DNA from: Actinomycetota bacterium
Lineage (GTDB): Bacteria > Actinomycetota > Actinomycetes > Nanopelagicales > Nanopelagicaceae
NCBI GenBank assembly: GCA_016870895.1
Contig: VGAA01000001.1
Location: 77,157-133,561, forward strand
DNA: 56,405 bases
Direction: 5' to 3'
The number at the start of each line of letters is the position of its first letter. The stretch's first letter is position 1. The translations under genes and the position numbers were made by a program. The notes under the pieces were generated by a model. The model did no database searches. It worked only from the letters and a program-made list of their open reading frames with translations, and was not told the origin of the DNA. Shown here piece after piece: positions 4,420 to 15,772 of the stretch.

Positions 4420-6321
4420 TTACCGCAGGGTTAGTGTGATTAAAGCCCCCTGCTTTACCTTACTGCCGATAGCTGGAGAAATATTATTCACTTTTCCAGA
4501 ACCCTTAATCGCTACTCGAAGTCCTAGGTTTTCTAAGTCTAAGGTCGCACTATTCTTACTCTTACCCAAAACATTCGGCACAAAAACAAATTCTGGCCCT
4601 TTTGAAACAGCCAAGATAATTTTACTTCCTTTTTCGATCGCATTAGAACTGTCAGGGCTTTGAGAGATGACCTGACCTTTAAAAATATTTTCACTGAATT
4701 TATACTCAATTTCAACATCAAATCCACTTTCAGTCAATTCAGATAAGGCTTGCTCACCACCTTTACCGATGTAAGACCTGAGTGAGACTTTTTCAATTCC
4801 TTTACTTACTATGATGTTTACAATCGACCCACGTTTAACCGGTGTCTGCTCTTCAGGGTTAGTTCCGATTACAAACCCCACCGCTATATCTGAGTCGAAG
4901 TTTTCAATGATTTCACCAACCGAAAGTCCAAGATCAGCAATTTTTTGTGAAGCTATATCAGGGGTAGTACCTTTTAGCGATGAAAGAATTATTCGTTCTT
5001 GACCTTTAGATACCACTAACCCAACAACGCCATCGGGAGATACCTTTCCTCCACCACCTGGTTTAGTAGAAATAATTTTGCCCTTATCAATATCTTCACT
5101 AAAAATTTCTTCAGCTATCTCAACTCTTAAACCTAATTGACTGATAACTTTGCTTGCTTCAGATTTACTTAGACCAACTAACGATGGAACCGCTATCCGG
5201 CCACTATCCAACCATTTAAATAATCCAAAAATAACTGAAACTAAAATTAGAAAAGCAATAATTCGGTTTCTTTTTACTCGCCTAGATAATTTCCTTCGTT
5301 TTGTATTCACTGAATCCTCTGTCTTTTTTGTAACACTTGAGTTAGCAGATATTATTTGAGTTGTTTTTTCCTTTAACCCTTCAAATGCTGATGCCACAGA
5401 AACCTTATTTCGCTTTGAGGGTTTGGTTGCAAGTGGTGGTATATCTAACTCCAAACTCATTTGTCTACGTTTTGGGTCGATCTCAGCCTGTATTTGACGC
5501 ATTGAGTTCAATAGCTCTTCGGCATCTCTGGGTCTTAAATCTGGATTTGGAGAAGTTGCATTAAAAATTAAGTCAGATAAATTCTTTGGAATATCGGATT
5601 TAATCTTTACTAGCTCAGGAATTCGGTCATTTACATGTCTATAGGCAATCTGGATTGGTGTTTCACCATCGTACGGCTTCGAACCTGTAAGCATTTCGAA
5701 AATCAAGATTCCGATTGCATATATGTCACTTCTTGAGTCTGCAACACCGCGTTGAACCTGCTCTGGCGACAAATAGGAAACACTGCCCAGTATCACACTT
5801 GATTCTGCCGTCATTGTTTGAGCCAGGGAAGTGTTTCTTGCCAATCCAAAATCAGCAACCTTAACTCTGCCATCTCTTGATATCAGGATATTTTCCGGTT
5901 TTATATCTCGATGAATAATCCCTATTTTATGGGCAGCCGAGAGAGCACTCAGAACTGGATTAATTATTTGAAAAGCTTGCTCGATACTTAGAGGAGAAGA
6001 TTCATTAAGTAAATCTCTCAACGTTGTTCCCTCAACTAATTCCATGACAATGAAAACAGCAGGAGGGCCACCTTGGTTCCAGCCCTGGTCTTGAATCGAA
6101 ACAATATTTGGGTGAGATAAAGCTGCTGTCGCTTTTGCTTCCTTTATAAATCTTGAGACAAATGCCTCATCATTTGCCAGATGTGCATGCATTATTTTTA
6201 CAGCGACTGGTCTATCTAATCTAGTGTCCAAGGCAGAATAAATACTTGCCATACCGCCCGAGGCTATAAGGCGCTGTAATAAGTACCTATTATCAATTAG
6301 TTCACCAGTTAAGTCCGACAC
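4420..6321 (-). CDS. Membrane Ser/Thr protein kinase with four PASTA domains (PknB/PknL type)
   Basis: Sensor kinase for cell wall precursors or muropeptides. The kinase domain spans about residues 10-275: Gly loop IASGGMAS, catalytic Lys42 in VAVKIM, HRDIKPEN with Asp139, DFG at 157-159, and SPEQ in place of APE. A basic juxtamembrane stretch (KRRKLSRRVKRNR) leads to one transmembrane helix near 353-370, followed by four extracellular PASTA repeats from about residue 375 to the end, each closing with a VSKG-like motif except the last. The neighbourhood (class II DAHP synthase, polyprenyl synthase) matches mycobacterial pknL, but mycobacterial PknL lacks PASTA repeats, so I withhold a symbol. 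The dcw cluster in this window carries no kinase of its own, so this protein could be the division-linked PASTA kinase. Confidence 0.95.
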   Translation of the reverse strand: MSDLTGELIDNRYLLQRLIASGGMASIYSALDTRLDRPVAVKIMHAHLANDEAFVSRFIKEAKATAALSHPNIVSIQDQGWNQGGPPAVFIVMELVEGTTLRDLLNESSPLSIEQAFQIINPVLSALSAAHKIGIIHRDIKPENILISRDGRVKVADFGLARNTSLAQTMTAESSVILGSVSYLSPEQVQRGVADSRSDIYAIGILIFEMLTGSKPYDGETPIQIAYRHVNDRIPELVKIKSDIPKNLSDLIFNATSPNPDLRPRDAEELLNSMRQIQAEIDPKRRQMSLELDIPPLATKPSKRNKVSVASAFEGLKEKTTQIISANSSVTKKTEDSVNTKRRKLSRRVKRNRIIAFLILVSVIFGLFKWLDSGRIAVPSLVGLSKSEASKVISQLGLRVEIAEEIFSEDIDKGKIISTKPGGGGKVSPDGVVGLVVSKGQERIILSSLKGTTPDIASQKIADLGLSVGEIIENFDSDIAVGFVIGTNPEEQTPVKRGSIVNIIVSKGIEKVSLRSYIGKGGEQALSELTESGFDVEIEYKFSENIFKGQVISQSPDSSNAIEKGSKIILAVSKGPEFVFVPNVLGKSKNSATLDLENLGLRVAIKGSGKVNNISPAIGSKVKQGALITLTLR

Positions 6322-6356: not shown

Positions 6357-6896
6357 TTAAGGCGCGCCCTTGATTATGTAATCTGCATGATTATTAGTTA
6401 ATTCCGCATTAAAATGCTTTTCTTGATCAATTAGGAATTTCTTCATGCTCTCCTTTATGTGTTCACCATCTCGTTTGATCACCCTTTGATATCCAATAGC
6501 TGGATCTAAATCCATCCAAATTAACTTTTGAATATAGCTACGAAAACTACTCTGGCCTGAGCCTACTCCCTCCAATATTAAGTACTTAGGGTGTGAAATT
6601 CCTACCGTCTCACTAAATGTTTTATTGACCCAGTTGTATTTTTGGTATGAGGCTGAATTTGAAATTAAATACGGTTTTAAAATGTGTTTAATGACACGCT
6701 GAACTAATTCATCAGAAAATGGATTACTCCAGCCATTATAAAGATCATCCATATGGACAACTGGAGCATGACTCAGTTCTTCAGATAACTTTATTGCTAG
6801 TGTAGTTTTGCCAGACCCAGCTACACCATCAATTGCAATTATTGAAGGTGTAGCTGCTAGTTTTTTTAAATCTTGTACTAAGTTAGTTATGTTCAT
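6357..6896 (-). CDS. P-loop small-molecule kinase, uridine-kinase-like
   Basis: Predicted nucleoside/metabolite kinase of about 179 residues. It has a Walker A motif GVAGSGKTT, a uridine-kinase-like second motif VVHMDDLYNGW, and YLILEGVGSGQ preceding a WMDLDP strand, with a lid-like RVIKRDGEH segment. I chose the ATG at 6896 (MNITNLVQ): it overlaps the stop of the upstream pnuT-like gene by 14 bases, whereas the longer frame reads deep into that gene. Because the two genes are translationally coupled and the transporter lies behind a predicted TPP riboswitch, the kinase may phosphorylate imported thiamine or a thiamine precursor and so trap it. That is inference from context; by sequence alone uridine/cytidine kinase or another nucleoside kinase is equally possible. 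The known thiamine pyrophosphokinase folds are not recognisable here. Confidence 0.8.
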   Translation of the reverse strand: MNITNLVQDLKKLAATPSIIAIDGVAGSGKTTLAIKLSEELSHAPVVHMDDLYNGWSNPFSDELVQRVIKHILKPYLISNSASYQKYNWVNKTFSETVGISHPKYLILEGVGSGQSSFRSYIQKLIWMDLDPAIGYQRVIKRDGEHIKESMKKFLIDQEKHFNAELTNNHADYIIKGAP

Positions 6897-7434
6897 TCTT
6901 TTTTGACTCTTTACCCCAACGAATCCAACCCCAAATAGCAATGCCACTAAAAATTAGGTAAAGCGCACTGGTTAAATAAAGTTCACCTTGAAAATATTGA
7001 TATGTATACGCTATGTCAACTATCAACCAGAGCGGCCATGCTTCAAATTTTTGCCAAACCATTAAAAGTTGCGCACAGATACTTCCAACAAAGCCAAAAG
7101 ATTCTATTTCGGAAGAGACCGCTCCAATACTTGTTAGAATTGGCCAAAGGGTTATTGATAAAATAGCTACTACAGATGTCAAACCCAGTCTCGATTTAAT
7201 TGTAAGCTTTTTAGGTTTTGCACCTTTTGGCCCCCATCCAAGCCATCCCCATATAGCACCGGCGATAAAAACAAACTGCAAAGCTGCGCTTGCATAGTAT
7301 GCCGATTGAAAGAAGAGTATCGAATAGAGCAGGCTACTTAGACTCCACCATGGCCAGGTTATTCTTGGACCCAAAACTCCCAAGCTAACAGCAATTAGTG
7401 ATGTTAAGAACGCTAATATTTCCAAAATAGACAT
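6883..7434 (-). CDS. pnuT: PnuC/PnuT-family vitamin transporter, probably thiamine (PnuT)
   Basis: Membrane facilitator of the PnuC family, 183 residues with about seven hydrophobic segments. Family features are the early WPWWSLSSLLYS segment, AIWGWLGWG before a basic loop (KPKKLTIKSR), and the C-terminal WLIVDIAYTYQYFQGELYL followed by AIWGWIRWGK. PnuC members take up nicotinamide riboside, while PnuT members take up thiamine and are typically controlled by TPP. Directly upstream lies a sequence that fits a TPP riboswitch whose 3' strand contains this gene's ribosome binding site, so I assign thiamine as substrate. The stop overlaps the downstream kinase start by 14 bases. The family call is firm; the substrate rests on the riboswitch. 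Confidence 0.87.
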   Translation of the reverse strand: MSILEILAFLTSLIAVSLGVLGPRITWPWWSLSSLLYSILFFQSAYYASAALQFVFIAGAIWGWLGWGPKGAKPKKLTIKSRLGLTSVVAILSITLWPILTSIGAVSSEIESFGFVGSICAQLLMVWQKFEAWPLWLIVDIAYTYQYFQGELYLTSALYLIFSGIAIWGWIRWGKESKKNEHN

Positions 7435-7440
7435 AAGTTA

Positions 7441-7530
7441 ATCCCTTCCAATTCGCATTGCCGAACTGGTCAATCGGTCGGCTTGAATTTCAAGCCCTCT
7501 CAGCTAAATTGATTAGCTCCCGTATAGATA
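7441..7530 (-). promoter_or_regulatory. TPP (thi-box) riboswitch controlling pnuT
   Basis: Read on the minus strand, the leader contains GGGAGCTA and TAGCTGAGAGGG (the conserved CUGAGA element with its paired GGG.GC arm), a hairpin GGCTTGAAATTCAAGCC, then GACCGATTGA resembling ACCUGAUC, a stem CCAGTTCG / CGAATTGG closed by a GCAATG loop, and AAGGGA at the end. That order matches the TPP aptamer. Some core bases depart from consensus (UGACC for UGAUC, UUGGAAGGGA for GCGUAGGGA). The final GGAAGGGA also serves as the Shine-Dalgarno seven bases before ATG, so TPP binding would plausibly block translation. Nothing was computed; a covariance-model search would settle it. Confidence 0.8.
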
Positions 7531-7573
7531 TGTTATCGCAATTTCTACATCAAAAATTGTCTATAGTTCTCTC

Positions 7574-7903
7574 GTGTTGAAGTTTGGTTACTTGGCTATG
7601 ATTTTGTTCACTATTGCAGGCTCTTTCTGGTTGGAAATTGCTTTGAAAGTAGGTGTGTTGCGTCGAGCGCTACGTCTAGTTTTGAGTGTTGGTCCAGTTG
7701 CACTCTTATTTTTAATTTGGGATGCGTATGCAATTTCTCAGGGACATTGGTATTTTGATAAGAGTCAAATTTTAGGAATCATCGGTCCATTTAACATTCC
7801 ACTAGAAGAGTTTCTTTTCTTTATTTTTGTACCAATTGCTGCGATTATGACTATAGAGGCAGTGAGAACTGTAAAGAAGCATTGGAAAGTTGGGGACGAA
7901 TAG
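7574..7903 (+). CDS. crtYc: Lycopene cyclase subunit CrtYc-like
   Basis: First half of the heterodimeric lycopene beta/epsilon cyclase of actinobacteria, an integral membrane protein of 109 residues with three hydrophobic helices. Diagnostic features are IWDAYAISQGHWYFD, then GPFNIPLEEFLFFIFVPI, which is the conserved PLEE segment of the CrtYc/CrtYd/CarR family. The start is GTG at 7574 (TTG at 7577 also fits). The stop TAG shares its last base with the GTG start of crtYd, which suggests coupled translation. It is divergent from pnuT and convergent with crtB. The product would cyclise one or both ends of lycopene; the myxol-type genes downstream suggest at least one end is left open. Confidence 0.92.
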   Translation: MLKFGYLAMILFTIAGSFWLEIALKVGVLRRALRLVLSVGPVALLFLIWDAYAISQGHWYFDKSQILGIIGPFNIPLEEFLFFIFVPIAAIMTIEAVRTVKKHWKVGDE

Positions 7904-8208
7904 TGGTTTATACAGACATTGCAATTGTGGCATTTATTGCCTCAATTATCGCTGATCGATTCCTTATTAAAAGTAAATTATTGACTAGAAAAGTTTTTTG
8001 GACAAGTTATACAATTATTCTTTTTTTTCAGTTATTAACAAACTGGTGGCTTACTTCAAAAAATATCGTTATGTATAATCCAGACGCAATTATTGGATTA
8101 AGAATTGCCTCAGCTCCTGTGGAGGACTTATTCTTTGGCTTTGCCCTAGTGTTACTAGTTATGAATCTATGGGTCTTCTGGGGCAAAAGAGGAATACAGA
8201 AGAAGTAA
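7903..8208 (+). CDS. crtYd: Lycopene cyclase subunit CrtYd-like
   Basis: Second half of the split lycopene cyclase, about 101 residues with three membrane helices. It contains the family blocks TNWWLTSKNIVMYNP and GLRIASAPVEDLFFGFALVLL; the PVEDLFF motif is the counterpart of PLEE in CrtYc. I chose GTG at 7903, which overlaps the last base of the crtYc stop and has GGGGAC nine or so bases upstream; a longer frame would need a TTG at 7882. It ends three bases before the convergent crtB stop. The split arrangement is the normal actinobacterial state, not a frameshift, because both halves start and stop cleanly and the reading frames are the usual two-gene form. Confidence 0.92.
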   Translation: MVYTDIAIVAFIASIIADRFLIKSKLLTRKVFWTSYTIILFFQLLTNWWLTSKNIVMYNPDAIIGLRIASAPVEDLFFGFALVLLVMNLWVFWGKRGIQKK

Positions 8209-8210
8209 TT

Positions 8211-9122
8211 TTATCGAGACTTTATTGTTCTTAAATAAGCAGGTAATGCAACTTTCAAGCGTCGCCAATTAGAAGTTTTTGCACGTAATTTAAAAATCTC
8301 ATAGTCAATTTTTTCAACTTCATCAACTATTCCACAGTAAAGTTCACTAGCAGCCTCGATACAGGCTCGACTACTTGGTTGGAGTAATTTAATTCCAGTT
8401 GATGATTCCTTTTGGAGTTTCCTAACTCGCGCAATTTGTTCCTGCAATGCATTTTTAATTTCTTTTGTAAGATGCCTTTGTTCAAGCATTTCTCTCGTTA
8501 CATTATGAGAACTAAGCTCATCAATTGGAAGATAAACGCGTCCTCGATCTAAATCTTCACTAACATCACGAATAAAGTTTGCTAATTGAAATGCAATGCC
8601 CAATTTTTCGGCAGCATAATTTGCCTCCTCAATCGAGTCAGGTGATACCACACCCAAGATTGGAATCATTTGTAGGCCAATTACTGCAGCAGATCCATAC
8701 ACATACTCATAGAGGTCTTCGTAGGTTTGATACTCATTTATGTGCAAATCCATCGACATTGAGTGCAGAAATGCTTCAAAATAGGCGATTGGAATGTTAA
8801 ATCGATTTACTGTATCAACCAGAGCCAAGCCAATAGTGTCATTACTTTTTCCATTGCGAACATCATTAAGAATTGTTTCACTCCAAGAGTTTAAAGCTGC
8901 TATTTTCTCTGAATCAGTAAGTGTTGATTGCAAATCATCAACAATTTCATCTGCGTATCTTGCAAATCCATAAAGTGCATGAACAAAAGGTCTCTTGCTT
9001 GGTGGGAGGAACTTTGTTGCGAGAAAATAAGTTTTACCGTGCAAGGAGTTTAAACGTTTGCATTCAAGGTAAGAAAGTTTTAACTGTGAATCTGTAATAC
9101 CAGCTGCGACTAATTCATCCAT
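8211..9122 (-). CDS. crtB: Phytoene synthase
   Basis: Joins two geranylgeranyl diphosphates head to head to give phytoene. The 303-residue protein contains the two Asp-rich magnesium-binding motifs of the squalene/phytoene synthase family: YADEIVDD near residue 60 and RDVSEDLDRGRVYLP near residue 190, plus YVYGSAAVIGLQM. The start ATG is two bases after the crtI stop, and crtI follows crtE by three bases, so crtE-crtI-crtB form one tight operon. Its end is three bases from the end of crtYd on the opposite strand, leaving almost no room for a terminator. Confidence 0.96.
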   Translation of the reverse strand: MDELVAAGITDSQLKLSYLECKRLNSLHGKTYFLATKFLPPSKRPFVHALYGFARYADEIVDDLQSTLTDSEKIAALNSWSETILNDVRNGKSNDTIGLALVDTVNRFNIPIAYFEAFLHSMSMDLHINEYQTYEDLYEYVYGSAAVIGLQMIPILGVVSPDSIEEANYAAEKLGIAFQLANFIRDVSEDLDRGRVYLPIDELSSHNVTREMLEQRHLTKEIKNALQEQIARVRKLQKESSTGIKLLQPSSRACIEAASELYCGIVDEVEKIDYEIFKLRAKTSNWRRLKVALPAYLRTIKSR

Positions 9123-9124
9123 AC

Positions 9125-10609
9125 TTACTTAACGGGTCCAATAATTCTTTCAGCTGCTAATCTTCCTGAAATTAACACCATTGGCACTCCAACTCCTGGT
9201 TGAGTTCCGGATCCTGCAAAAACAATATTCTCGTAACCCTTTGCAAGATTTCGAGGGCGGAAAGGTCCAGTCTGGAAAAAAGTATGAGCACTAGCAAATG
9301 GTGCACCTTGGGCCATCCCTTGATTTTCCCAATCAAGTGGAGTGGTTTGATGTTCAACCTCAATGTTCTCACCAAAATCTGAATAGCCACGATCTTCTAG
9401 CGCTTTAACCATTTCATCTCTATACCTTGGACCAATTTTTTTCCAATCGATTCCAGCAGTTAAATTGGGTGTTGGAAATAAAATGTAATAAGAGGTCTTG
9501 CCCGCTGGGGCCAAATCTGGGTCATCCTTTGACGGAACAGTAACTAGAATACTTGGATCGCTCATCAGTACTTTCTTTTTGATAAGCTCGTCAAAAACGC
9601 CATCCCAAGATTTTCCAAAATGAATGTTGTGGTGAGCTAAATGATCGTAGCTCTTATTAGAGCCAACTAATAAGGTCACACATGAAGGTGAATATTTTAG
9701 TCGCTTCACTGACATTGGTTCCTTTTGAAGCAAATCACGCCAAGCAATAGGTAGGTCTGGATTCAGTACCACTACATCACAAGGAATTCGCTCTCCCTTA
9801 TCAGTTATTACGGCTTTAGCCCTACCGTTGGATCTTTCTATTGAGGTAACAGTTGAGTTGTACTTAAATGTTACTCCATGCTTTTGTGCCGCAGAAGCAA
9901 GGGCACGTGGCACTGCATGCATACCTCCTTTTGGAAAAAATACGCCGTTAACAGAATCCATATATGCGATTACTGCATAAATTGCTAATGCCTGCTGCGG
10001 ACTTACTCCAGCATACATCGCTTGAAATGAATAAACTTTTTGTGTTCTAGGATCCTTCAAGAATTGATTAACTTTAGGAGCTAGTTTTCTAAATCCACCT
10101 ATGGCTATCAGTCTTGCTAAATTAGGAGTTAACAAATTAAAAGGCGAATCAATATTACGGTCAATAAAATCATTCATCTCATACTTATATAATTTTGTAA
10201 CAAAATCCACATATCGTCCGTATCCAATTGCCTCTTGTGAACCAATAGTCTTTGCAATTTCAGCTTGCATTTGATTAGTATCTGCATGAACATCTAATTG
10301 TGTTCCATCATCATAAAATGCTCGATATAGAGGCTTTAATGGAACCAAGTCGAGCCAATCTTTTATATCTTCACTAACGCATGCCAAGGCATCAGAGATT
10401 AGATCTGGCATCGTCAAAACTGATGGACCGGTATCAAAAGCAAAGCCAGACTTATTTAGCAAACCGTTTCTACCTCCTGGAACACTCTCTCGTTCCACAA
10501 CAGTTACTGTTCTACCGGCGCCAGCAAGTCTCAGCGCTGCGCTTAATCCCGCCAAGCCGGCCCCAACAACAACAACATTCTCGGTTGGTCCCTTTACTCT
10601 TGCTGGCAT
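9125..10609 (-). CDS. crtI: Phytoene desaturase (phytoene to lycopene)
   Basis: FAD-dependent desaturase of 494 residues in the CrtI family. The N-terminus holds the dinucleotide fold VVVVGAGLAGLSAALRLAG with ERESVPGGRNG, then FDTGPSVLTMPDL; the C-terminus holds the second FAD contact ENIVFAGSGTQPGVGVPMVL. Its place between crtE and crtB, three and two bases apart, assigns it to the main C40 route making lycopene. The second CrtI-type gene at 12404-13897 is clearly divergent in sequence, so these are separate enzymes and not an assembly duplicate. Confidence 0.95.
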   Translation of the reverse strand: MPARVKGPTENVVVVGAGLAGLSAALRLAGAGRTVTVVERESVPGGRNGLLNKSGFAFDTGPSVLTMPDLISDALACVSEDIKDWLDLVPLKPLYRAFYDDGTQLDVHADTNQMQAEIAKTIGSQEAIGYGRYVDFVTKLYKYEMNDFIDRNIDSPFNLLTPNLARLIAIGGFRKLAPKVNQFLKDPRTQKVYSFQAMYAGVSPQQALAIYAVIAYMDSVNGVFFPKGGMHAVPRALASAAQKHGVTFKYNSTVTSIERSNGRAKAVITDKGERIPCDVVVLNPDLPIAWRDLLQKEPMSVKRLKYSPSCVTLLVGSNKSYDHLAHHNIHFGKSWDGVFDELIKKKVLMSDPSILVTVPSKDDPDLAPAGKTSYYILFPTPNLTAGIDWKKIGPRYRDEMVKALEDRGYSDFGENIEVEHQTTPLDWENQGMAQGAPFASAHTFFQTGPFRPRNLAKGYENIVFAGSGTQPGVGVPMVLISGRLAAERIIGPVK

Positions 10610-10612
10610 TTT

Positions 10613-11653
10613 CTAAATCTTCCTATTAGTAGCTAGTTGGGCAAGCTCTTGAAGCAAGCGCTTGCCTTCCAGAGAAATTGCTTCATAGGCTAGAGCATTA
10701 AGTGAAGTTTCAGCCAATTGTTTAATCATTGACTCAATGTGAGATAGGGCGCCAGTTTCAACAATAATCTCTTGGAGCAGACTAATTTGAACATCAGAGA
10801 GATTTGGATCACCAAAATACTGATCCAAAACTTCTAGTTGTGATTTATTAGCCTTATCAAAAGTTGCTGCGATCAAGGCAGTTCTTTTCCCTTCACGTAA
10901 ATCATCGCCGGCAGGCTTTCCCGTTTCTTTAGGGTTGCCAAAAATTCCTAGAATGTCGTCTCGTAATTGAAAGGCCTCACCTAGTGGAATTCCATAATCA
11001 GTAAAAGCCTTCAGCAAGTCAGTTGATCCATTGCCTAATGCGACACCAAAATGAAGTGGCCGCTCAATCGTATATTTACCAGATTTAAATCTTGCTACTT
11101 TCATTGACCTCTCAATGCTTTGCGTCGCTAAAGATTGTTCAAATACATCCAAATATTGTCCTGCCATTAGTTCTACACGCATTTCATCATAGAAGGGTAG
11201 GACCCCAATCAATTCTTGATCACTAATGCCTGAGGTATGAAGCATTTGAGCTGACCAAACTAGGGCTAAGTCGCCCATTAAAATTGCAGATGCACTACCA
11301 AACTGTGAGGCTGATCCTGAAAGTTTTTGCTGATTGTGAATTGCTTCAAAAATTTTATGGATACTAGGAGCACCTCGCCTTGTATCTGAATTATCCATCA
11401 CATCATCATGAATAAGTGCACAAACATGAATTAGTTCTAAAGAAGCAACTGCTTTGATCATCTGGGGAGTAGGTTTTTTACCAGTTGATAACAATCCGGC
11501 ATAGGCAAATAATGGTCTTAGTCGCTTACCGCTATCTAGTAGAAACTTTTCAATTTCTGTAGCCACAGGTTTTAGTTCTACCCCAATATTAGATAAGTAC
11601 TGACTTCCAGTTTTTACAAAATCTGATAACGCAAGATTTATGTCATCCCGCAT
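10613..11653 (-). CDS. crtE: Geranylgeranyl diphosphate synthase (polyprenyl synthetase)
   Basis: Chain-elongating trans-prenyltransferase supplying GGPP. The first Asp-rich motif is IHDDVMDNSDTRRG and the second LRDDILGIFG; GKRLRP and the GEAFQLRDD helix are also present. I chose ATG at 11653 (MRDDINLALSDF), about 346 residues, because this is where similarity to short-chain prenyl synthases should begin; in-frame GTG at 11686 and TTG at 11734 would add 11 or 27 residues that look non-conserved. None has a strong Shine-Dalgarno. It heads the crtE-crtI-crtB operon, three bases before crtI. The exact chain length product (C20) is inferred from the operon. Confidence 0.9.
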   Translation of the reverse strand: MRDDINLALSDFVKTGSQYLSNIGVELKPVATEIEKFLLDSGKRLRPLFAYAGLLSTGKKPTPQMIKAVASLELIHVCALIHDDVMDNSDTRRGAPSIHKIFEAIHNQQKLSGSASQFGSASAILMGDLALVWSAQMLHTSGISDQELIGVLPFYDEMRVELMAGQYLDVFEQSLATQSIERSMKVARFKSGKYTIERPLHFGVALGNGSTDLLKAFTDYGIPLGEAFQLRDDILGIFGNPKETGKPAGDDLREGKRTALIAATFDKANKSQLEVLDQYFGDPNLSDVQISLLQEIIVETGALSHIESMIKQLAETSLNALAYEAISLEGKRLLQELAQLATNRKI

Positions 11654-11774
11654 TGAAACTAATATCGAGCCATCAGGTGAAGTCACGGCGCAACGGTACC
11701 CTGCCTGGGCTTTTGAGGATAGAAAATGAACCAATATTTTCGGAAAAAAAGAGTATTAAAGATGGTGTGGAATT

Positions 11775-12407
11775 ATGATTAGACCCATAATGAGAAAGCA
11801 CGATTTTTTGAATCACTGGAGCCGGCTACATGGAAATGCGCCAATTTCGGGAGTAGTGAAGGCTTGGTTATCGATATCTTTTATCATGGCAAGGGTTTTA
11901 TGTAAGTTAAAGATATCTGCAAATCTACTCACATTTTCAGGACTACTTTTTGCAGTACTTCTCTATCTGTTTGGTAAGGAAGTTTGGTCACCTATATTTT
12001 TAGTTCTTTCGTTACTGGCAGATGGTATCGATGGAAGTATGGCAATAATCTCCGGTAGAGCTTCTAAATTTGGCTCACTATTGGACTCAGTAGTAGATCG
12101 AATCTCTGAAGCACTCTGGGTTTTAGTGTTATATAAAATCGGGATTGATCAAGAAGTTTTACTTCTCATAGTTATCACGGCATTTATTCAAGAGTATTTA
12201 AGAAGTAGATCTGGTGGACTAGGTTTGACGGATATTGGAATAGTAACAATTGCTGAAAGACCAGTGCGAGCTTCTTTTGTATTCATAATTCTAATTTTCT
12301 TTCATCTAAATTTTGCCAACATTATTTTTATCGCTTATCTATGGATAATATTTCAAATAGTAAGTCTGATTACAATTACAAAATATTTACGGTCAAAATT
12401 TCGTTAA
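11775..12407 (+). CDS. CDP-alcohol phosphatidyltransferase family protein
   Basis: Membrane enzyme family that transfers a phosphatidyl group from a CDP-linked lipid to an alcohol, 210 residues with about six hydrophobic segments. The active-site motif is visible around residues 78-105: DGIDG, then SMAI, then GSLLDSVVDR, which supplies the four metal-binding Asp residues. The usual DGxxAR has Ile where Arg is expected, an unusual change. It lies alone on the plus strand between the crtE operon and the second desaturase gene, with its last four bases overlapping the latter's stop. The alcohol acceptor is unknown; it may have nothing to do with carotenoids, or it could serve phospholipid synthesis. 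Confidence 0.85.
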   Translation: MIRPIMRKHDFLNHWSRLHGNAPISGVVKAWLSISFIMARVLCKLKISANLLTFSGLLFAVLLYLFGKEVWSPIFLVLSLLADGIDGSMAIISGRASKFGSLLDSVVDRISEALWVLVLYKIGIDQEVLLLIVITAFIQEYLRSRSGGLGLTDIGIVTIAERPVRASFVFIILIFFHLNFANIIFIAYLWIIFQIVSLITITKYLRSKFR

Positions 12408-13897
12408 GCTTTTCCGATACAATTCGCCACAATCTCAGCACTTATTCCAACTAATGGAAGTCCGCCCCCAGGGTGTGCTGAGCCGCCAACACAGAATAAT
12501 CCCTTGGTTTTAGATCTATTTCTGGCTCGCAAAAAAGCAGATGCTGCGGAATTACTTGATGTACCGTAAATAGAACCACCTGGAGCCATAGTGTAGTTTT
12601 CTAAGTCTGCAGGAGTTCTGTACTTAAAAAATTCAAGTCTTGATGAAACATTCATACCTAGACCATCAAGTTTCTTAACTATTTTCTTGGCATAAATATC
12701 ACTATTTTGTTGCCAATCCCAACCTGAATCTGGCTCATGCCGAGGAGCATTGACTAGTACAAACCAAGACTCCTTATTTGCGCTTTTTACCATACTGTCA
12801 TCTTTTGGTGCGCAAATATAAATAGTTGGGTCATCTACTGGGACTTTTCTATTGAATACATCTTCAAACTCATTATCGTAGTTTTGTGGAAAAAAAACAT
12901 TATGGTGAGCTAACTCTACATTTTTACCTCTAGAGTTATCTAAACCTAGTAGTAATGAAAAACCAGACAGAGATTTTGTAGAACGTTTAAGTTTCTTTCT
13001 CTCAAAACGAGCTGATTTAACTTTTTTAGAAATTAAATTATTGAAAACGTGTTCAGCATCAGCATTAGCAACTACTAAATCACTAGCAATAAATGCTTTA
13101 TCTTCAATTACAATTCCTTTAGTTCTGTCATGATCAACAGTTATTTCTGTTACACGCGAGTTAAATTCGAATTTAACCCCTAAATCTTGGCATCGAGTCT
13201 GTAGGGCGTTAGATAGTTGCCCTATTCCACCTCTTATATGCCATGCTCCAAAAGCACTTTCAACAAATGCGATTGTTAACAGCACGGCCGGTGCCCTCCG
13301 GGGATCACTACCTGTGTATGTTGCATACCGGTCAATGATCATTTTTAGATGTGGATCAAGATCCATTTTATTGCTTAACTTGCGCAAGGAAGAAAAAGGT
13401 GCAATTTCTTTTATTTGTCTAAAAAGATTTTTATTTTTAAGCAGTGGCCAGATTGAATCTAATTCAGACTCGACAAATTGCTCTCTCGAAAGTTCCCACA
13501 TGCGCTCTGCTCTGTCAATTACTATCTTCCAATCTTGTCCAGATTTATCGCCTAGCACCCGTGAAATCTCTTGGTAAGTTTTTGGGTTAGACAGATTTGG
13601 AAAAGTTATCGACTTACCATCGCTAAAGTTATATTTGAAAGCAGGGTCAACTGGTACTAATTCCAAAATATGTTCAATTCTTTTCCCAGTTTTTAAGAAA
13701 AGATCCCGATAAACGGCAGGAAGTGTTAAGAGTGATGGACCAGTGTCGAATGCAAAATCTCCAAACCATTCAGTCCGGCACTTTCCACCAGATCGTTCAC
13801 TGTTTTCAAAAATTGTAACTTCATGACCATTTTTTGCAAGCCGCGCTGCAGCACTCATACCGCCGACACCAGCCCCAATTACTGAAATTTTAGCCAT
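12404..13897 (-). CDS. crtD: CrtI/CrtD-type carotenoid desaturase
   Basis: Second FAD-dependent carotenoid oxidoreductase in the cluster, 497 residues. N-terminal dinucleotide fold ISVIGAGVGGMSAAARLAKNG with NSERSGGKCRTEWFG and FDTGPSLLTLP; C-terminal GLFCVGGSAHPGGGLPLVGIS, the pattern seen in CrtI/CrtD and bacterial carotenoid oxidoreductases. Its gene overlaps the CruG-like glycosyltransferase gene by eight bases and lies in the operon with CruF- and CrtA-like genes, so a 3',4'-desaturation of a hydroxylated acyclic end (the CrtD step of myxol formation) is the best guess. Symbol is by inferred role. Other possible roles: a second phytoene/neurosporene desaturase or an isomerase. Confidence 0.85.
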   Translation of the reverse strand: MAKISVIGAGVGGMSAAARLAKNGHEVTIFENSERSGGKCRTEWFGDFAFDTGPSLLTLPAVYRDLFLKTGKRIEHILELVPVDPAFKYNFSDGKSITFPNLSNPKTYQEISRVLGDKSGQDWKIVIDRAERMWELSREQFVESELDSIWPLLKNKNLFRQIKEIAPFSSLRKLSNKMDLDPHLKMIIDRYATYTGSDPRRAPAVLLTIAFVESAFGAWHIRGGIGQLSNALQTRCQDLGVKFEFNSRVTEITVDHDRTKGIVIEDKAFIASDLVVANADAEHVFNNLISKKVKSARFERKKLKRSTKSLSGFSLLLGLDNSRGKNVELAHHNVFFPQNYDNEFEDVFNRKVPVDDPTIYICAPKDDSMVKSANKESWFVLVNAPRHEPDSGWDWQQNSDIYAKKIVKKLDGLGMNVSSRLEFFKYRTPADLENYTMAPGGSIYGTSSNSAASAFLRARNRSKTKGLFCVGGSAHPGGGLPLVGISAEIVANCIGKA

Positions 13898-14960
13898 GAA
13901 TAATTCTTCTATTTCGCCAAGTAAGCGTTTTAGTTAATCTGCCATACCAGGAATAAAAAATGAATATGATTAAAAGGCCAACAGCAATTGGATGTAACAG
14001 CGCAGTACTTGGAATGCCTCCAGTTCTTAGTGAAGAAAATACTCTGCTTAAGAAGATTAAAACAAATGCCCATAATGCCAGGTGTGATCCTTGTATTGCA
14101 GCCACAATCGGAACAATTCCATTTAAAACCAGAATTATTAAAGTAAAAACAACACCAATAGGATTACCAAAGGCTTTGTAAAGAGACTTTTGATAACCAC
14201 GGATAAGTTCTTTGTTTGTGTTATACATTTTACAAGTTGCAACTTGACTTGCTTCGGCCACTGAACCCCGAAAACCAGATGTAATCAATTGGCGAGCAAG
14301 CATCAAATCATCTAAAACTTCATCTCTAATTTTAAAATGTCCGCCACTATTTAAATATGCAGATTTTTTAACAATAAAAAACTGCCCATTTGCGATTGTC
14401 ATCGACCTAATAGGAAATTTGTAGGCCAGTAGTAGGGGAACTGATGCTAACCAGGACCACTGCAGTAGTGGTTGAAATACTCTTTGCAAAAAACCTTCTG
14501 TGAGCTGCCTTGGATAGGGTGAAATAAACTCCCATCCTTTCATTGAGTTTAAAGCCGAAGAAATTGCATTTTGTGATAATCTCACATCTGCATCAAGAAA
14601 AACCAAATATTCGCCAGTGCTACGTTCAGCAAGCTGGTGACAAGCCCATAATTTACCAAGCCAACCCTGGGGCGTTGGCTGACCTTCTAGGATTTTAATG
14701 CTTGAAAATTTCCTTAGCTCTGACAGTGTTTGATCGCTTGATTCATCATCGAGAACTAATATCTCATAATTATCTAAACCACGCTGATTTACTACAGCAT
14801 TAATGCATTCCTGAACATTAAGTTCCTCATTCCTCATAGGAATCAAAATCGAAATTGAAGTGGAGGTTGAAAAACTCTTGTCCTTAAGAACCCTAATACT
14901 ATAGCTGTTGAGTATTACCAGAAAAAAAGAAACACATGCCAGAATTAGTACGAGTGCCAT
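13890..14960 (-). CDS. cruG: CruG-like carotenoid glycosyltransferase (family 2)
   Basis: Predicted membrane-bound GT2 glycosyltransferase, 356 residues. After an N-terminal membrane helix come ISILIPMRNEELNV, VLDDESSD, GWLGKLWACHQLAE and the DXD-type site FLDADVRL; further on are IANGQFFIVKK, IRDEVLDDLMLAR and an RGYQKSLYKAFG region, followed by three or more C-terminal helices. The GWxGKxWA motif is shared by CruG and CrtQ-type carotenoid glycosyltransferases. I use ATG at 14960, whose A is the last base of the CruF stop; a TTG at 14963 gives a TTGA overlap and one more residue. Role inferred: adds a sugar to the 2'-hydroxyl of a myxol-type carotenoid. Confidence 0.86.
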   Translation of the reverse strand: MALVLILACVSFFLVILNSYSIRVLKDKSFSTSTSISILIPMRNEELNVQECINAVVNQRGLDNYEILVLDDESSDQTLSELRKFSSIKILEGQPTPQGWLGKLWACHQLAERSTGEYLVFLDADVRLSQNAISSALNSMKGWEFISPYPRQLTEGFLQRVFQPLLQWSWLASVPLLLAYKFPIRSMTIANGQFFIVKKSAYLNSGGHFKIRDEVLDDLMLARQLITSGFRGSVAEASQVATCKMYNTNKELIRGYQKSLYKAFGNPIGVVFTLIILVLNGIVPIVAAIQGSHLALWAFVLIFLSRVFSSLRTGGIPSTALLHPIAVGLLIIFIFYSWYGRLTKTLTWRNRRIIHG

Positions 14961-15772
14961 CAAATATTACTTGGTGGACCAAAACGTGAAACGAATATAT
15001 ATGGAATCATTAGTAGTCCAAAAACAATTCCACCTGAAACTGCAACACCTGGAGAATCAAAGAAAAATAAATTTCCTACAATTCCCGAAAAGAAAGTCCA
15101 TCCTAAAAAGATATTATGAATAGGTGGTACTTGTGAAACATTTCTTCGATCTTTTCTAAGCAACCTATGTAAAATCGCCATTAAGCCCATTCCGGTTAAC
15201 AACCATCCCACTGCATTTGATAATGGAATATTTGGCTGAAGAGGAAAAGTTTGGCCTGTAAAATTCCAAACCCATCTCTCAGCCGCAACCATTTGTGGAT
15301 CTAAAAACAAATCCCAGGCCATCATTCCTAAGCCTCCGTATAGAAAAACCCAATTCTTAGTTACTTTTCTTGCCACTATCAAAATTGGATGAGCAATCAT
15401 TATCCAAGCAAACGGAACTACTAATGGAACGCCGTAAATTTGATAGCCAAGTGTGCCTGAATACTCATAACTACCAAATGGCCAACCGGTCCTACTGCCA
15501 ATTTGTTCGATTACTAATGAATAGCTAAAGGTGACTAAGAATAAAGTCAAGGTGTAGGTTAGGCCATAAGCAAAAAGTGCATGTAATAACATTGACCCTG
15601 CTGCCCAATATACTGTTGCAATCGTAATAACTCGCAATGTCTCACCATCTGTAAGCGGATAAGAAATCTGGAGTCCAATTGCCACAATAAATATTGCATA
15701 TAGCCCAAAAAGCTTCCAGGTTGACAGTCTCTTTCGACTATCTCGTTTGGGATAAAACTGGCGCAGTGACAT
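14960..15772 (-). CDS. cruF: CruF-like carotenoid 1',2'-hydratase (DUF422)
   Basis: Integral membrane protein of 270 residues with about seven helices. The family hallmark is the run around residues 85-125: SYSLVIEQIGSRTGWPFGSYEYS then YQIYGVPLVVPFAWIM, followed by WVFLYGGLGMMAWDLFLDPQMV. In cyanobacteria CruF hydrates the open end of gamma-carotene at C-1', in haloarchaea and some actinobacteria the relative acts in bacterioruberin synthesis. Here it lies directly before the CruG-like gene (overlapping stop and start) and 21 bases after the CrtA-like gene, as part of one minus-strand operon. Monocyclic gamma-carotene as substrate is inferred from the presence of CrtYc/CrtYd. Confidence 0.91.
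   Translation of the reverse strand: MSLRQFYPKRDSRKRLSTWKLFGLYAIFIVAIGLQISYPLTDGETLRVITIATVYWAAGSMLLHALFAYGLTYTLTLFLVTFSYSLVIEQIGSRTGWPFGSYEYSGTLGYQIYGVPLVVPFAWIMIAHPILIVARKVTKNWVFLYGGLGMMAWDLFLDPQMVAAERWVWNFTGQTFPLQPNIPLSNAVGWLLTGMGLMAILHRLLRKDRRNVSQVPPIHNIFLGWTFFSGIVGNLFFFDSPGVAVSGGIVFGLLMIPYIFVSRFGPPSNI

Follow-up and report, generated by a model that had tools for sequence, protein, structure and literature searches.

The operon at positions 7535 to 6357 on the reverse strand of the window, the whole stretch of 56,405 nucleotides that was analysed, consists of two genes that probably (roughly 0.78) import thiamine and trap it by means of a TMP-forming kinase in a thiamine-auxotrophic freshwater actinobacterium. 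This estimate covers import and trapping and the TMP-forming kinase and excludes the ligand of the leader RNA. In the mechanism suggested by comparative sequence analysis, the transporter PnuT would allow thiamine to reach equilibrium between the two sides of the membrane, the kinase encoded next to it would phosphorylate thiamine to TMP, which could not leave the cell, and ThiL, encoded elsewhere, would convert TMP to TPP. We favor uptake and trapping because of four observations: the gap between ThiL and its substrate TMP, the complementarity of the kinase with ThiE, the retention of the kinase where a ThiB-type transporter takes the place of PnuT, and independent operons of YkoEDC with kinase homologues. 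The conserved operon comprises a probable new family of thiamine kinases, as judged from these comparisons, and a variant aptamer.

From its relatives and features we infer that the host is an acI-like (Nanopelagicales) freshwater actinobacterium. Its genome assembly comprises 681 kb and is 64% complete; of the relatives of the kinase that bear names, most come from MAGs of uncultured actinobacteria. According to Kang et al. 2017 (PMC5301498), acI bacteria form the most abundant bacterial group in the majority of lakes and rely on thiamine from their surroundings.

Layout of the operon and properties of its proteins

All features of the operon are located on the reverse strand, and their arrangement is conserved among the relatives:

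7530-7535, reverse strand: putative -10 box TAACAT, from the position of TANNNT across the family aptamers
7430-7533, reverse strand: variant TPP-family aptamer with P2, P3, P3a and a continuous P4-P5 (RF00059 39.9 bits, R1 119 bits, covariation)
7498-7503, reverse strand: CUGAGA, the invariant J3-2 pyrimidine (HMP) pocket (alignments; role from PMC3764141)
7448-7469, reverse strand: continuous P4-P5 hairpin CCAGUUCG-GCAAUG-CGAAUUGG in place of the J4/5 pyrophosphate loop (alignment to canonical TPP aptamers of the same family and compensatory pairs)
7442-7449, reverse strand: Shine-Dalgarno sequence of pnuT, GGAAGGGA, within the 3' edge of the aptamer (sequence)
6883-7434, reverse strand: PnuC-family transporter of 183 aa, putative PnuT (thiamine facilitator; PF04973 E 5e-34, kinase adjacency)
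6357-6896, reverse strand: P-loop kinase of 179 aa with a uridine-kinase fold, a divergent relative of PRK06547 and putative thiamine kinase
6883-6896, reverse strand: overlap of the pnuT end and the kinase start, 14 bases (sequence and ORFs)

The kinase starts with the ATG at 6896 and the stop of the transporter gene ends at 6883, so that the overlap comprises exactly the 14 bases that had been reported from the first reading of the sequence. A gene for a PASTA-domain protein kinase (4420-6321) and a divergent lycopene cyclase gene (7574-7903) are the neighbors of the operon. The latter belongs to a carotenoid gene cluster at 7574-14963, directly divergent from the operon, which according to the ORFs (only some members were tested) contains a two-part lycopene cyclase, phytoene synthase and desaturase-like genes, a prenyl transferase and a glycosyltransferase. 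The position of the kinase between the lycopene cyclase or carotenoid side and the PASTA kinase is also kept in the relative G003.

The assignment of the transporter to the PnuC family was borne out by the match to PF04973 (E 5e-34, 118 bits compared with a curated Pfam cut-off of 27.3). NCBIfam names it PnuC, nicotinamide riboside (NR) carrier, with a score above the family cut-off; we consider thiamine the likelier substrate from the genomic context. PnuT was present directly upstream of the kinase in all loci of a first set except L026, whose contig ends short, and transporter and kinase are neighbors in almost every family locus that was inspected. PnuC-type facilitators depend on intracellular phosphorylation for trapping of their substrate.

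The kinase had been described as uridine-kinase-like, which agrees with its fold, though it passes no curated cut-off for uridine kinases: the scores were 28.6 bits with TIGR00235 (cut-off 220) and 34.7 bits with PRK05480 (cut-off 180). Its best family is PRK06547 (NF005115) with 93.2 bits, below the cut-off of 173, and relatives from Leifsonia and Corynebacterium located in YkoEDC operons pass this cut-off with 181-195 bits. TPK_catalytic (PF04263) was not among the best 25 of 34 Pfam matches of the kinase, and no NadR model was among its best 25 NCBIfam matches. In a structure model calculated with AlphaFold2 from 25 sequences (pLDDT 95.7), the closest solved folds were pantothenate kinase, the putative uridine kinase 1rz3 and uridine-cytidine kinase, with Z values of 17-19 and an rmsd of 2.1-2.7 over 160-176 residues; NRK1 matched with Z about 12. 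Among the invariant residues are those of the Walker A motif, DD 50-51, Y53, G55, W56, W89, EGV 109-111, R138, R142 and D143. The predicted fold fits a small-molecule kinase, and the substrate cannot be read from it.

A TPP-family aptamer without the J4/5 loop

The leader had been predicted to be a TPP riboswitch. The Rfam model RF00059 matched 7533-7430 (reverse strand) over its full length (1-105) with 39.9 bits and an E-value of 1e-6 on 261 nt (genome-wide E = 6.4e-7), which identifies a TPP-family aptamer. The gathering score of RF00059 is 54.3 and at gathering scores Rfam gives no match for the leader of the window, so that the aptamer was judged by E-value, alignment and covariation. A pattern derived from the aptamer core had a single occurrence in the window and none in any of 100 shuffles, and the folding z-score of the aptamer was -3.4.

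With R1, an aptamer model built from 17 relatives, the aptamer of the window scores 119 bits. At a score of at least 68 bits R1 detected variant aptamers in 131 of the 151 family genomes, 133 in total, whereas canonical TPP aptamers of the same family reach only 33-47 bits. In 126 of the 133 cases the kinase follows on the same strand at a distance of 515-678 bp, a spacing that corresponds to the length of PnuT; for the remaining 7 the kinase is located on a different contig or was not found in an incomplete genome. When only the Rfam model was used, the same aptamer-kinase spacing of 515-678 bp was seen for 91 of 118 TPP matches. The arrangement of aptamer, PnuT and kinase is not due to chance. 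The variant aptamer is inherited with the operon, and its spread therefore does not represent many independent events. Outside the family, among the sampled genomes of the class, aptamers with at least 56 bits were found with R1 only in G278 and G195, both before PnuT, and a search of viral contigs for the variant core yielded none. Two assemblies contain two variant aptamers each (contigs C27 and C89 of G141, C33 and C95 of G138), which could reflect duplication or contamination.

The variant aptamers of this set have lost the J4/5 loop and carry a covarying P4-P5 helix instead, whereas the canonical aptamers of the family, located before thiC or thiB, retain the loop. The canonical members read ACCUGAU-CUGG-GUAAUG-CCAG-CGCAGGG, the two thiC aptamers with ACCUGUCCGG on the 5' side, and the PnuT-linked ones read ACCAG-UUCG-GUAAUG-CGAA-UUGG. 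Compared with the canonical form each strand is two bases shorter, and what remains folds into a single helix. The pair adjoining the base of P5 is G-U, G-C or A-U and the next pair A-U, C-G or G-C; this variation with maintained pairing indicates that the helix is under selection. In an alignment of 68 distinct aptamers 97.7% of the cells are paired and changes on both sides occur in 11 of 21 pairs; no shuffle and no slid register reached these values. The alignment of the 68 aptamers was fitted to the model, which favors pairing, and a MAFFT alignment of 17 sequences agrees with it. CUGAGAGG is invariant among the variant aptamers, and the J3-2 pyrimidine pocket CUGAGA, also invariant, is present together with P2 and P3. 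All variants inspected are devoid of the CG of J5-4 and of the equivalents of C77 and G78.

In the thiM riboswitch of E. coli the contacts to the metal-bound pyrophosphate are made by G60, C77 and G78 of J4/5, three of the most highly conserved bases, and the pyrimidine is bound in J3-2 (U39-A43; PMC3764141); the pyrophosphate has been described as mandatory for switching (PMC4112796). As the pyrophosphate-sensing loop is missing, TPP as the ligand is doubtful, and the designation TPP riboswitch needs to be amended. The conversion of the pyrophosphate pocket into base pairs together with an invariant pyrimidine pocket suggests thiamine or TMP as the ligand, for which we see about an even chance. 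A riboswitch that still responds to TPP has a considerable probability, if somewhat below one half: the shortened P4-P5 could hold the pyrophosphate via other residues and metal ions, or TPP could be bound weakly, and the reading of the operon would be unchanged. The RNA derives from a TPP aptamer, scores 40 bits with its model and belongs to the same pathway, and the canonical members of the family presumably sense the end product. On the other hand, a TPP ligand has to be reconciled with the high conservation and mandatory role of the pyrophosphate contacts in thiM, with the missing equivalents of C77 and G78 and with compensatory changes that maintain the shortened helix.

The leader also overlaps the ribosome binding site of the transporter, as had been proposed: the Shine-Dalgarno sequence GGAAGGGA (7449-7442) serves the ATG at 7434 and sits at the 3' edge of P4. 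Of the variant aptamers 67 of 69, and of the canonical ones 13 of 16, carry a TANNNT box that ends at an upstream distance of 6-10 nt from CGGGAG, compared with an expectation of 9%. This family-wide -10 position is more informative than a generic sigma-70 promoter scan, which listed nothing at the aptamer. In the window the box TAACAT is located at 7535-7530, so that transcription would start approximately at the first base of P2, without P1. The fold contains no conserved P1, and in canonical as well as variant members the -10 box directly adjoins P2; both types of leader thus seem to be P1-less. The mRNA would accordingly begin at the edge of the aptamer, and in the simplest mechanism, with the mode of switching predicted from this layout, the ligand would close the aptamer junction, directly occlude the Shine-Dalgarno sequence and turn off translation.

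Gene content, genomic contexts and the role of the kinase

ThiL converts TMP to TPP and requires TMP as substrate. The search for a source of TMP in the 151 family genomes was confined to ThiE, ThiK and thiamine pyrophosphokinase (TPK). ThiL is encoded in 143 and the kinase in 139 of the 151 genomes. TPK (PF04263) was found in none of the 151, the genome of the window included, and ThiK above the cut-off likewise in none. Genuine ThiE (TMP synthase, 165-201 bits) was restricted to seven genomes (G003, G005, G014, G020, G032, G044 and G076); weak, partial matches to PF02581 (18-25 bits) were treated as chance. Weakly matching ThiK/choline-kinase-like proteins occur in 72 of the 151 genomes, and a ThiK orthologue was rejected since none of these matches exceeded the cut-off. 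TPP-dependent transketolase-type enzymes were present in 21 of 21 relatives tested. Because ThiL needs TMP, TPK and ThiK are absent and ThiE is rare, most of these cells have no known route from imported thiamine to TMP.

The kinase is distributed as expected for an enzyme that fills this gap. Among the 12 genomes without it, 5 encode ThiE and the other 7 are 60-86% complete; 83 genomes have a completeness of 90% or more, the kinase is missing from only 3 of them, and all 3 possess ThiE. The complementarity of kinase and ThiE is significant (Fisher p = 1e-4; by genus p = 0.02), with p-values that are generous since the family genomes are related, and the pattern of gene content rests on few independent losses. 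ThiE and the kinase occur together in G003 and G076. The genome of the window and the single-contig genomes G001, G018 and G030 of its genus contain the kinase, the aptamer and ThiL and neither ThiE nor TPK, which upholds, as far as tested, the expectation that genes for de novo thiamine synthesis are lacking. The best reading of gene content and context is that the kinase is the missing thiamine kinase, and we infer thiamine as its substrate and TMP as its product.

Exchanges of the transporter point in the same direction. Seven loci (L032, L039, L040, L042, L043, L044 and L046) from family members devoid of the variant aptamer carry a canonical TPP aptamer in front of a ThiB-type ABC transporter; TIGR01254 was above the cut-off in three ThiB loci confirmed by NCBIfam and in L032. 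A repeated search for ThiE in eight genomes devoid of the variant aptamer found none, yet these genomes have retained the kinase. G003 carries the kinase by itself between the genes for lycopene cyclase and the PASTA kinase, at the place that PnuT occupies in relatives. The kinases of G003 and G112, the two tested from genomes without the PnuT leader, nest inside the PnuT-linked clade of the tree, which indicates that PnuT was lost and the kinase kept. In three Leifsonia and one Corynebacterium the kinase is the gene after YkoE-YkoD-YkoC (PF09819 and PF02361 matched), and in Brevibacterium it follows ykoC on a contig that ends short (loci L098, L099, L100, L101 and L103 of these three genera). 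The Leifsonia locus L099 starts within a canonical TPP aptamer that precedes ykoE and whose GAU/CGC loop is intact. PnuT-linked and YkoEDC-linked kinases are located on opposite sides of the tree midpoint. Within 3 kb of most non-freshwater homologues no thiamine genes were found, and the function can therefore not be extended to all actinobacterial homologues. A replacement of the kinase itself was observed in G195 (98% complete, no ThiE), where a NadR-type AAA_28 kinase (L194, 2464-3033, reverse strand) comes after the variant aptamer and PnuT, a natural substitute for the trapping kinase.

This last case is again a trapping kinase, yet it fits NR as well as thiamine. An NR uptake system, with PnuC, an NR kinase of the NRK fold and a TPP-like leader responding to something else, could also account for the PnuC score above the family cut-off and for the fold shared with NRK1 (Z about 12). 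It is nevertheless very unlikely: 5 of the 7 genomes with ThiE do not contain the operon, the kinase is retained where PnuT has given way to a thiamine ABC transporter, homologues are found in YkoEDC operons, the pyrimidine pocket of the aptamer is kept, and G195 is also devoid of ThiE. Still less probable is a uridine/cytidine kinase for nucleoside salvage that lies beside pnuT by chance, the weakest of the alternatives in spite of the fold and the weak uridine kinase scores, since the curated cut-offs were failed, the neighborhood is fixed across the family and the nearest clades, and the thiamine links hold outside the family too.

Two further readings leave the kinase within thiamine metabolism. 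With TPK absent, a replacement that forms TPP in one step as a pyrophosphokinase is conceivable, but ThiL, retained in 143 of 151 genomes, would then be pointless and the fold is that of monophosphate-transferring kinases, which makes this reading distinctly unlikely. The original prediction had also allowed for a kinase acting on a thiamine precursor. YkoEDC is listed among the transporters of HMP as well as thiamine (PMC6593275), and the operon might salvage a breakdown product (HMP, aminopyrimidine or HET) that the kinase activates; without ThiE the phosphorylated precursor could not be joined to TMP, and we rate this version very low. The predicted uptake and trapping of thiamine itself is well supported by the comparative genomics. 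Extending thiamine trapping to a new uridine-kinase-fold family of thiamine kinases that serves PnuT, ThiB and YkoEDC in Actinomycetota, combined with a riboswitch class derived from the TPP aptamer that senses thiamine (or TMP), is a tentative proposal to which we give somewhat less than even odds.

Comparison with known systems

The core of the operon is of a known kind. The association of a TPP element with PnuT in acI bacteria was already published in 2017: the excerpted text of Kang et al. (PMC5301498) describes acI strains as thiamine auxotrophs in which nearly all enzymes of de novo synthesis and salvage are missing, reports a THI element before a putative pnuT and names no kinase. Lineage, transporter family and leader are the same as in the window; the leader is treated there as an ordinary THI element, and a kinase partner is unmentioned in these excerpts. 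In the literature searched we found no report of a TPP aptamer without J4/5 or of the kinase assignment, so that both appear to be unreported. If the assignment is correct, the kinase would close the gap in thiamine salvage of acI bacteria and provide a function for a family that NCBI lists as 'hypothetical protein' and that occurs throughout Actinomycetota. The variant RNA would be a natural example in which to study the behavior of a TPP aptamer deprived of its pyrophosphate pocket, and a candidate for a change of ligand specificity.

Compared with the TPP riboswitch RF00059, the leader shares P2, P3, P3a, the invariant CUGAGA and the GUAAUG of L5, as well as the position before a putative thiamine transporter and the overlap with the Shine-Dalgarno sequence. 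It differs in its score below the gathering score, in the replacement of the J4/5 internal loop (GAU/CGU) by covarying pairs and in that no P1 was seen. The kinase has the fold, the Walker A motif, the DD motif and the lid arginines in common with the P-loop enzymes uridine/cytidine kinase, NRK1 and pantothenate kinase, but it shows about 20% identity to them, remains below their curated cut-offs and carries its own motifs MDDLYxGW, Y-x-K-Y-[ND]-W and LEGVGSGQ. With the thiamine kinase ThiK/YcfN (TIGR02721, choline-kinase/APH type) it would share the reaction, thiamine and ATP to TMP, feeding ThiL, whereas the folds are unrelated, the enzyme of the window being a P-loop protein of the uridine kinase type. 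The closest family is the hypothetical protein PRK06547 (NF005115), whose members in the YkoEDC operons of Leifsonia and Corynebacterium pass the cut-off; the kinase of the window is a divergent relative (93 compared with 173 bits) of this family, which has no assigned function.
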